Below, one piece after another: positions 23,049-25,312 of a DNA stretch of 64,000 bases. Within the stretch, counting starts at the first letter, position 1. Each line of letters opens with the position of its first letter. The notes under the pieces were generated by a model that was given only the letters and a program-made list of their open reading frames with translations, was not told the origin of the DNA and ran no database searches. The position numbers were made by a program, and so were the translations under genes. The stretch comes from Chthonomonadaceae bacterium (GTDB lineage: Bacteria; Armatimonadota; Fimbriimonadia; Fimbriimonadales; Fimbriimonadaceae): the NCBI GenBank assembly GCA_015709495.1, contig CP054189.1, positions 1,984,001 to 2,048,000 on the forward strand, written 5' to 3'.

Positions 23049-23099
23049 GTCTGGTGGGCGATGACGGGTTCGAACCGCCGACATCCTCGGTGTAAACGA
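23049..23099 (-). repeat. Displaced tRNA-Val 3' half (distal attachment site)
   Basis: 51 bases identical to 25235-25285. It contains the anticodon region, T-loop and CCA end but lacks the 5' half of the tRNA, so it is not a working gene. Confidence 0.85.
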
Positions 23100-23191
23100 C
23101 AATTGTCGAGCCTCAAGCGATCGTTTCAGATTCGACGTGCGTTCCAGATCGTCTCAGATCGGCCAGCCGAATTGAGAGACAATTGAGAGAC
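23097..23191. repeat. Small palindrome and tandem repeat next to the distal att copy
   Basis: CGACAATTGTCG (23097-23108) is a perfect palindrome across the end of the att copy. The 11-mer AATTGAGAGAC is repeated in tandem at 23170-23191. Between them, three copies of a YYCAGATYG-like word occur (about 23125-23160). Such elements near an att site can be recombinase or accessory-factor sites. Confidence 0.4.
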
Positions 23192-23224
23192 AAAGACGAT
23201 TGATGCAAGCCTCGCCGATTGGTA

Positions 23225-23253
23225 TTGACATGTAGGCACGTGTCTGCTATTAT
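23225..23253 (+). promoter_or_regulatory. Strong promoter of the island's DUF1848 gene with an operator-like inverted repeat
   Basis: Consensus TTGACA (23225-23230), a 17-nt spacer and TATTAT (23248-23253). An inverted repeat, GACATGT-aggc-ACGTGTC (23227-23244, one mismatched pair), covers the -35 and spacer and could bind a dimeric repressor. The GTG start is 8 nt after the -10. Confidence 0.6.
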
Positions 23254-23261
23254 TCGAGAAC

Positions 23262-24179
23262 GTGGTCATTTCGGCTAGCTACAAAACGGACATTCCGGCG
23301 TTCTATGGCAGATGGCTCCTGAATCGTCTCGATGCGGGCTACTGCTGGGTCAAGAATCCTGTAAGTGGCCGACCCTTCTTTGTCTCGCTCGCACGCCAAG
23401 ATGTTGAGGGGATCGTCTTCTGGACAAAGAACCCATGGCCGTTCATGGCATTTGCCCAACACGTCCGCGACCGTGGCCACCCCTTTTATTTCCAGCACAC
23501 GATCACGGGATATGGCGAGTCGATCGAGCGTGCTGTCCTTCCTGCCTGGCGGTCCAGCGAAGCGGCCAAGCGGCTTGTCGATACATTTGGTGCCGGTTCT
23601 GTCGTCTGGCGCTACGACCCGATTGTGGTGACTGGTGCCATGCCAAGCGACTGGCATGTCGAGAATTTCGGCCAGCTTGCTGCCGCGCTCGCCGGATATG
23701 TCGATGAGGTCGCAACGAAGTTCCTCGTCTTGCACTCGAAAACGCGTCGAAACTTGACCGCAGCAATTGGACGCACGTGGAAAGATCCCGATCCCACATC
23801 GAAAGCGAGCATTCTGCGGACATTCAACAATATCGCCAAAAGCCATAACATGAAGCTAACGCTGTGTTCGCAGCCCGACATTCCGGTCGAGCTTCCCCAC
23901 GCAATTTGCATCGATGCCTTGCGGCTGAATGCATTGGGTGCCCATATCGTGGCGCCAAAGACTCTTGGCAATCGTCCCGGTTGCCTCTGCATTGAAGCTC
24001 GGGACATCGGCGATTACGACACCTGCCCTCAAGGCTGTGCATATTGCTACGCCACTCAGAATCAACGTATTGCCGTTCAAAGGCACAAGCTGCACGACCC
24101 GCATGCCGAATCGCTCATTCCCATGCAATGCCCCAAACGAATCTCGCCGTTGCGCCAAACGGCTCTCTTTGACGCCTAG
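23262..24179 (+). CDS. DUF1848 family protein (cargo of the tRNA-Val island)
   Basis: 305 aa, GTG start. The N-terminus VISASYKTDIPAFYG and the segment DVEGIVFWTKNPWPF are family hallmarks. The C-terminus has the cysteine cluster CLCIEARDIGDY followed by TCPQGCAYCYA, a CxC plus C-x3-C-x2-C pattern that suggests a metal or iron-sulfur centre. The biochemical role of DUF1848 is not established. It converges with the methyltransferase gene with a 4-nt overlap. The promoter indicates strong, probably regulated, leaderless expression. Confidence 0.85.
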   Translation: MVISASYKTDIPAFYGRWLLNRLDAGYCWVKNPVSGRPFFVSLARQDVEGIVFWTKNPWPFMAFAQHVRDRGHPFYFQHTITGYGESIERAVLPAWRSSEAAKRLVDTFGAGSVVWRYDPIVVTGAMPSDWHVENFGQLAAALAGYVDEVATKFLVLHSKTRRNLTAAIGRTWKDPDPTSKASILRTFNNIAKSHNMKLTLCSQPDIPVELPHAICIDALRLNALGAHIVAPKTLGNRPGCLCIEARDIGDYDTCPQGCAYCYATQNQRIAVQRHKLHDPHAESLIPMQCPKRISPLRQTALFDA

Positions 24180-25108
24180 GGTCTCCGAAAGATCGTCAGT
24201 CGACCGTAAAACCCGAAATACGGATCATCGAATTCTGGGTCTCTAAAGACTTGGCCGACGCCAGCCGATTCACCCATCTGGTCGAGCTCCCGTCGAAGCT
24301 GGCAGAGCTCGACTGGCCTTCGATGGTCGCTCGTCGTAACATTTCTTGGCGGTTCCGCATTCTCTTCTTCCAAAATGAGCTCGAAGCCCTCATTGAATAG
24401 GCTCTGCACGGCCCTTTGGGTAAGCGCCAGCTTCTCGTCCACGTTTGGGGTCAAGATAATGCCGACGCCGCCGCTTCGAATTTGAGCCGCATAAGTGCCG
24501 AAGAGCTTCATCTGTCGTCTCGCATCCGATGGGTTCAAAGGCATGGAAAAGAGATGGTTCGCCACGAGGATGTCGCATGTGGGCATCGCTGAAGCTAAGG
24601 AGATCGATGCACCCGAAAGCCGGTTCTGTCTCTGAAGGCTCCTCCACAACATATGGCTTGTCTTCGTCATCTCTTGGCTTTCCTCAATCGAGGCGATGTC
24701 ATAAGAGCCGCCCTTCGTGGCGGTCCAGGCTGCAAGTGCCCATGCCGAGCTTCCCGTACCGGAACCCAGATCGAGGACTTGCGCACGTTCGGGCAGCGCT
24801 TTCGCACTCTTGCATGCCCCAAGGGAGATGAGAAGATTGTCCGCGCGCATTAGGTGGAACTTGAGTGCATAGGCATCTCCAATCGCTGGCAAGTCGTAAT
24901 CCACAGGTTGACTTCCGGAAAGCTTGTGCAACTCCTCATTGGCGTCCCGGAGCTGGCTCAGATGCCGACGCTGCTCAGGACCCGGCAGGCTGCCGATTTG
25001 GGTACGGTAACAATTGACAAGCGCTTCTTCGAGAGCCTCGATCGCGGAGAGTTCTTTGCAAAGGGCAAGAGCCATGCCCTCCTGGTCAGCCAAATGCCAG
25101 TTTGTCAA
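24176..25108 (-). CDS. SAM-dependent methyltransferase-like protein (cargo of the tRNA-Val island)
   Basis: 310 aa from a TTG at 25108; an alternative ATG lies 11 codons later. An N-terminal helical region of about 100 residues is followed by the SAM-binding motif AQVLDLGSGTGSSAWAL (about 108-124), an acidic end of strand 2 (DIASIEES) and CDILVANHLFSM at the motif IV position. The substrate is unknown; it does not resemble DNA methylases with NPPY. It converges on the DUF1848 gene, and the two are the only genes of the island. Confidence 0.65.
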   Translation of the reverse strand: MTNWHLADQEGMALALCKELSAIEALEEALVNCYRTQIGSLPGPEQRRHLSQLRDANEELHKLSGSQPVDYDLPAIGDAYALKFHLMRADNLLISLGACKSAKALPERAQVLDLGSGTGSSAWALAAWTATKGGSYDIASIEESQEMTKTSHMLWRSLQRQNRLSGASISLASAMPTCDILVANHLFSMPLNPSDARRQMKLFGTYAAQIRSGGVGIILTPNVDEKLALTQRAVQSLFNEGFELILEEENAEPPRNVTTSDHRRPVELCQLRRELDQMGESAGVGQVFRDPEFDDPYFGFYGRLTIFRRP

Positions 25109-25234
25109 CCAGTGAGCCGAAACTTACGTTCTCCGCGAGCGCAGTTGCCAACTGTAGTCTTCAGCCGGACCTATATTTGAACTTTGGCAGGGCTCGTAGA
25201 GCGCCTCGTCGATCAAGAGCAACAGTCTATATAA

Positions 25235-25285
25235 GTCTGGTGGGCGATGACGGGTTCGAACCGCCGACATCCTCGGTGTAAACGA
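25235..25285 (-). repeat. Proximal attachment repeat inside tRNA-Val
   Basis: The 51-bp copy that forms the 3' part of the working tRNA-Val gene. It matches 23049-23099 exactly and ends at tRNA nucleotide 28, in the anticodon stem. Confidence 0.85.
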
Positions 25286-25312
25286 GGCGCTCTACCGCTG
25301 AGCTAATCGCCC
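25238..25312 (-). tRNA. tRNA-Val (anticodon TAC)
   Basis: 75 nt including an encoded CCA. The acceptor stem GGGCGAT pairs with ATCGCCC, the anticodon stem CCTCG/CGAGG encloses the loop TTTACAC (anticodon TAC), and the T-loop is GGTTCGAACCC-like. The gene is intact although it serves as the insertion site of a mini-island at its 3' half. Confidence 0.93.

Follow-up and report, generated by a model that had tools for sequence, protein, structure and literature searches.

The 2.2-kb segment adjoining the tRNA-Val(TAC) gene in the 64-kb window (the whole stretch of 64,000 nucleotides that was analysed) is very probably a CIME-type integrative element, non-autonomous and devoid of an integrase, that is putatively moved in trans, or in cis by a neighboring element. 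ARAGORN found one full copy of tRNA-Val(TAC), at 25238–25312 on the minus strand, and a repeat search revealed a perfect 51-bp direct repeat at 23049–23099 and 25235–25285, 100% identical and separated by 2,186 bp from start to start, just as the sequence-only reading had described. The repeat comprises nucleotides 28–75 of the tRNA (to the CCA) plus three further nucleotides (GAC). The proximal copy (25235–25285, minus strand) lies within the intact tRNA, which comparison with 20 relatives indicated to be the integration target, its present 3' half coming from the element. The distal copy (23049–23099, minus strand) is the displaced tRNA 3' half, with its break point in the anticodon loop. 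Across the 2.9-Mb single-contig host genome, the 51-mer is confined to these two sites with up to three mismatches allowed, and a perfect repeat of this length cannot be due to chance.

Exactly two genes, convergent and overlapping by 4 nt, fill the interval between the repeats, as had also been proposed. The first (23262–24179, plus strand) encodes a 305-aa DUF1848 protein that matched Pfam PF08902 with E = 1.8e-77 (261 bits, compared to a gathering cut-off of 30.5) and the PADLOC profile RTasDUF1848 with 6e-38. This was the only PADLOC profile matched, the DRT reverse transcriptase partner being absent from the two ORFs. The second (24176–25108, minus strand) encodes a 310-aa SAM-dependent methyltransferase-like protein, whose match to Methyltransf_23 (E = 3.7e-4) falls below the Pfam cut-off. 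Both appear to be cargo: neither is a recombinase or a transfer gene, and the reported absence of an integrase was confirmed for the whole 64-kb window, which contains no integrase-like ORF. There was no phage packaging, capsid, structural or replication gene among the two proteins by PHROGs, which gave weak matches to entries of unknown function and to a tRNA methyltransferase. The GC content is 55.2% inside the element and about 60% in the flanks. No further copy of the methyltransferase gene was found in the other 290 of 291 genomes of the phylum; being unique, it gives no support to the idea that methyltransferase and DUF1848 form a conserved unit. A probable DUF1848 promoter (TTGACA-17-TATTAT; 23225–23253, plus strand) was identified from the sequence and from comparison of upstream regions. 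It lies inside a block, ATGTAGKC...TGTCTGCTAT, that precedes the DUF1848 genes of the genus (window 23225–23253; L030, L067, L068 and L108) and is possibly an operator.

Next to the distal repeat is a conserved block of ~95 bp (23103–23197, minus strand) with the features of an arm-type recombination end, defined by a 34-sequence alignment (A4) and by two sequence models, R1 (tRNA part plus block) and R2 (the block alone, built from 34 ends). When relatives were searched with the region at the DNA level, the matches other than tRNA genes fell on window positions 23052–23194, that is, the displaced tRNA half and about 95 bp of the inner end of the element. One was in the congener G001 (82%) and three were in G013, which has three tandem copies of the end block, and all of them adjoin displaced tRNA-Val halves. 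The aligned block runs from GTCTCTCAAAT-GTCTCTCAATT through two TGAGAC motifs and TTGAACCT to the tRNA core. It includes two direct arm repeats, GTCTCTCAATT GTCTCTCAATT (23170–23191, minus strand), which a motif scan showed to be the sole two occurrences in the 64-kb window, and which are probable integrase arm-binding sites, given that matching repeats lie upstream of integrase genes. The alignments also show an inverted arm motif pair, GATCTGAGAC GATCTGGAAC (23141–23160, minus strand), of which the second copy is degenerate here. R1 matched 103 of the 113 genomes of the order, many of these matches covering the tRNA-Val part only. R2 gave hits in 49 of the phylum's 291 genomes; 46 of these belong to the host's family, and in the remaining three the match was weak. 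The end blocks adjoin the 3' halves of Val-TAC, Val-GAC, Val-CAC, Pro-GGG, Arg-CCT, Thr-GGT, Leu-like and other tRNAs, and no arm repeat was found in viral contigs. Seen without such comparison, the locus shows a direct repeat and nothing else, and might be put down to an ordinary duplication, tandem or segmental, of a portion of the tRNA, with no site-specific recombination involved. This explanation is very improbable, considering that the break lies in the anticodon loop, that displaced halves at many loci are followed by this end block, and that the layout is identical at paralogous loci of other tRNAs.

Integrases with matching repeats were found in the relatives. The tRNA-Val(TAC) gene of G001, which belongs to the same genus, holds a 72-kb element whose distal end is the one 82% identical to that of the window element. 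About 110 bp past the tRNA end starts the gene for a 399-aa tyrosine integrase (Phage_integrase, E = 3.6e-11), with three GTCTCTCAA repeats directly upstream, and the displaced tRNA half and end block sit 72 kb from the integrase end. The element also encodes a type I restriction system and has metal-efflux-type genes. Integrases related to that of G001 (52–65% identity) are present in many genomes of the family, and many of their genes directly follow a Val, Pro or Arg tRNA, with GTCTCTCAA repeats or a close variant. We infer that the arm repeats are probably arm-binding sites with subfamily specificity. The host's only homologue of the G001 integrase (41–43% identity; L061 6686–8044, host C1:341685–343043) is located at tRNA-Val(GAC) and adjoins a TraG/TrwB-like gene. 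Its arm repeats are GGTTCCTAA and not of the GTCTCTCAA type, and the same-species genome G094 has a 71%-identical integrase, likewise with GGTTCCTAA repeats. The host's own integrase was considered as a helper for the window element, but judged unlikely because its arm repeats differ. Its locus is probably a separate, larger element, of which no distal end was found within about 21 kb. The two genomes of the species yielded no cognate integrase for the window element, and the host would now appear to lack one. The end block offers a searchable handle for such elements, and pairing it with integrases of known tRNA target makes mobilization in trans testable.

Integrase-less segments such as the window element are common. 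Of the 29 complete segments lying between one tRNA copy and the next, 25 carry no integrase of the G001 type, as judged by a profile specific to that integrase family, and 17 of these 25 are 4 kb or less (including one 124-bp fragment), in a sample drawn from stretches of up to 20 kb around the ends, which favors short segments. Several integrase-less segments have arm repeats at both ends (the 2.77-kb G001 Pro element, the G013 Pro array and G075 Thr). Their cargo is varied, and includes HepT-type toxin-antitoxin genes, RHS proteins, an Ntox16 toxin domain, a P-type ATPase, esterases and sugar-utilization genes. The host itself contains a second integrase-less element, of 3,007 bp, at tRNA-Pro(GGG) (L030 5360–8445; host C1:1100359–1103444), which is also found in G094; it carries DUF1848, a TcmP-like protein and DUF5131, and its end again abuts the DUF1848 gene. 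Tandem arrays in which each segment ends in a tRNA 3' half were found at G013 Val-GAC, G013 Pro, G074 Arg and G075 Thr. The G013 Val-GAC array (L106 1030–4894) consists of three units of 0.9, 1.1 and 1.8 kb. In one of these units there is an MNT/HepT-type pair, of which G013 has another copy (L024; 85% identity over 653 bp) just past its tRNA-Val(TAC) array.

These arrays raise the tentative possibility that one Armatimonadota family runs a tRNA-anchored cassette system, in which integrase-less units from about 1 kb, with a common ~95-bp arm block and a tRNA 3' half, would stand in tandem at several tRNAs and be moved in trans by radiated, tRNA-specific tyrosine integrases. As a narrower form of the preferred reading, small elements would be regular products, gained and lost singly in the tandem arrays through integrases acting in trans, in the manner of integron cassettes, which we consider conceivable but rather doubtful. 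Besides the arrays themselves, two observations are consistent with it. A methyltransferase and AlkB-like oxygenase pair in the G001 Pro element (L108 2251–3673) recurs in a 1.7-kb tRNA-Arg element of G074 (L120 9104–10449; 30% and 50% identity), placing it in small elements of two different genera and at different tRNA targets, and DUF1848 genes abut the arm block at two different tRNA targets. However, repeated accretion and deletion would yield the same picture, no shuffling was observed in the sampled arrays, and the sampling bias towards short segments applies here as well. (The methyltransferase of the G001 Pro element matches PADLOC C3a159.)

The history of the site was examined in relatives, which the sequence-only reading had expected to show an empty tRNA-Val site. 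At 20 relatives' loci, compared over about 0.4 to 8 kb of downstream flank, tRNA-Val(TAC) is single-copy, with a longest downstream match of 17 nt. As no second tRNA 3' fragment above this length turned up at any of the 20 loci, the target is usually unoccupied. The expectation was borne out to that extent, but no empty site bearing both host flanks was found among the relatives examined. In 14 of the 20 loci, the tRNA gene adjoins the same amidase gene as in the host, and on this comparison the tRNA-Val(TAC)/amidase neighborhood is evidently ancestral. In G094, both flanks are 96–97% identical to those of the host, with other DNA between them (L067 5968–8198), containing a 188-aa ORF and a DUF1848 gene, and with no distal repeat, arm block or methyltransferase. 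To judge from these two genomes, members of the species differ at this site, and the G094 locus looks rearranged. Relatives that kept both genes in place but had no second tRNA copy had been named as evidence against integration. G094 goes only part of the way, having a DUF1848 gene and no second copy, but the gene is a different one (71% identity) in the opposite orientation, and the methyltransferase is missing. Overall, the interpretation of the locus as an integrated element was upheld by evidence that the sequence-only reading lacked: the conserved distal end, the integrase-bearing relatives with the same arm repeats, the many integrase-less segments and the 20 single-copy loci.

Arm repeats are present at the proximal end of the 72-kb G001 element and of several integrase-less elements, whereas those of the tRNA-Val element are distal only, with none at its tRNA-proximal end. 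The window copy may therefore be crippled. (Inside the proximal end, at 25196–25209, is a 14-nt inverted copy of tRNA-Val nucleotides 18–31, GTAGAGCGCCTCGT; a piece similar to GTAGAGCGCCTCGT was also seen near the distal end of the G001 element, in direct orientation.) The missing proximal arm sites are consistent with a narrower view of the element as a decayed remnant, in which deletions stripped a larger, integrase-bearing island of its integrase, its transfer genes and the proximal arm, leaving a fixed, immobile scar with two cargo genes. Such decay is a known route to CIMEs (PMC5704250), and would fit the failure to find a cognate integrase in the host genome and the rearranged occupant of the same site in G094, which is devoid of the distal end. 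On the other hand, about 87% of the insert is taken up by the two ORFs, both intact, and gene debris is absent; the displaced tRNA copy, although non-functional, has kept its identity over all 51 bp; and other integrase-less segments (those at G001 Pro, G013 Pro and G075 Thr mentioned above) have kept both arms. We consider the chances of the remnant view to be just short of even.

The preferred reading, that of a non-autonomous integrative element, implies the following sequence of events, as deduced from the sequences. An ancestor or helper with a G001-type tyrosine integrase specific for tRNA-Val(TAC) would have joined circular DNA to the anticodon loop and 3' half of the tRNA gene. The incoming copy would have restored the tRNA, while the former 3' half came to lie 2.2 kb off, beside the arm-site block. 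The element would thus have retained both attachment repeats and the distal arm repeats, with the integrase absent, and its excision or transfer would depend on an integrase from elsewhere, acting either in trans or, if a second element integrated at the same att, in cis. The recombination mechanism, the function of the arm sites and the mobilization of the element are all predicted from these comparisons.

CIMEs are defined as ICE- or IME-derived elements that retain attL and attR, have lost their integration and transfer genes, and are mobilized after accretion (PMC5704250). By its predicted function the window element works like a CIME, and the two parts of this definition that can be tested by sequence agree with it: attL and attR are retained in the form of the 51-bp repeats and the distal arm block, albeit with no proximal arm repeats, and the two ORFs include no integration or transfer gene. 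As to a possible derivation from an ICE or IME, its distal end is 82% identical to that of the integrase-bearing 72-kb element. ICESt1-type accretion likewise produces tandem arrays at one target from elements with attL and attR but no integration or transfer genes (PMC5704250). Compared to the known CIMEs, the units of this family are as small as about 1–3 kb, occupy many tRNA targets in one bacterial family, and share one arm-site block, and several integrase-less members have arm repeats at both ends. Known CIMEs are surpassed in scale: the end block is common to the family, the tRNA targets are numerous, units can be as short as about 1 kb, and arrays occur.

Phage satellites such as tycheposons are tRNA-targeted elements that depend on helpers; the window element differs from them in having no phage structural or packaging gene. 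They are named in a paper (PMC11389934) that also describes CALIN cassette arrays, which similarly consist of small gene units devoid of their own integrase and mobilized in trans (as predicted here), but are bounded by attC sites rather than by tRNA halves and arm repeats. The ssrA islands of Dehalococcoides are also tandem, bounded by copies of an RNA-gene end, and in some cases lack a recombinase, but they use a serine recombinase and a tmRNA target instead of a tyrosine integrase and tRNA genes (PMC3146451). Like the tDNA islands found by Islander, the window element has an intact tRNA gene and, correctly ordered and oriented with respect to it, a displaced 3' fragment, but those islands carry an integrase, and Islander rejects candidates that have none or that are under 2 kb (PMC4383910). 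Because such finders demand an integrase and a length of at least 2 kb, knowledge of tRNA islands rests largely on integrase-bearing elements, and most of the tRNA-bounded segments sampled in this one bacterial group fail the Islander rule despite a shared, recognizable recombination end. A literature search on Fimbriimonadaceae and integrase returned no paper.

DUF1848 genes are rare in the order, with six above the cut-off in 113 genomes, including that of the window. Four of the six begin 45–70 bp from an arm block: those of the host's Val and Pro elements, the G094 Pro element and the G001 Pro element. The partners in the host and G094 Pro elements, TcmP-like and DUF5131, constitute the PADLOC candidate defence pair PDC-M30, and those in the G001 Pro element are the methyltransferase and AlkB-like oxygenase; this methyltransferase is weakly similar (24%, E = 3e-5) to that of the window. 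The partners of the paralogues give a slight hint that both DUF1848 and the methyltransferase are enzymes, most likely with nucleic acid or some other component of the cell as their target. In other bacteria, 80 DUF1848 loci were inspected: three have a tRNA within about 6 kb and none has a duplicated tRNA end. DUF1848 was therefore rejected as a mobility gene and is best regarded as a passenger, so that the earlier suggestion that the small element is a clue to DUF1848 was only half right. No DUF1848 gene was found in viral contigs, and eight distant homologues in phage records have no bearing on the window element.

The library searched contained no paper on DUF1848. In 40 homologues, residues C255, C259, Y261 and C262 are invariant, forming a CX3CX2C (CX3CXYC) motif at the C-terminus; this is presumably the cysteine cluster on which Pfam already remarks. 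An AlphaFold model (mean pLDDT 89) matched 19 chains with Z of 8 or more, nearly all of them radical SAM proteins, including 3can (Z = 10.3, rmsd 2.6, 153 aligned), Elp3 (9.8), spore photoproduct lyase (8.9) and RlmN (8.3), while Foldseek alone gave no match with E ≤ 0.001. On this model, DUF1848 looks like a radical-SAM-like barrel with a C-terminal cluster motif. In radical SAM enzymes, the cluster motif follows the first strand. Because the DUF1848 motif is C-terminal and the first residue of the model aligns well downstream of the start of the radical SAM templates, the protein may be a circularly permuted radical SAM barrel. A fold-level hypothesis is thereby available for a protein whose paralogues occur together with methyltransferase, AlkB-like and candidate defence genes. 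In Chloroflexi, DUF1848 genes (L169 and L172) have GAACNNNNGTTC, a LexA/SOS-type palindrome, at the promoter, indicating possible control of these genes by DNA damage.
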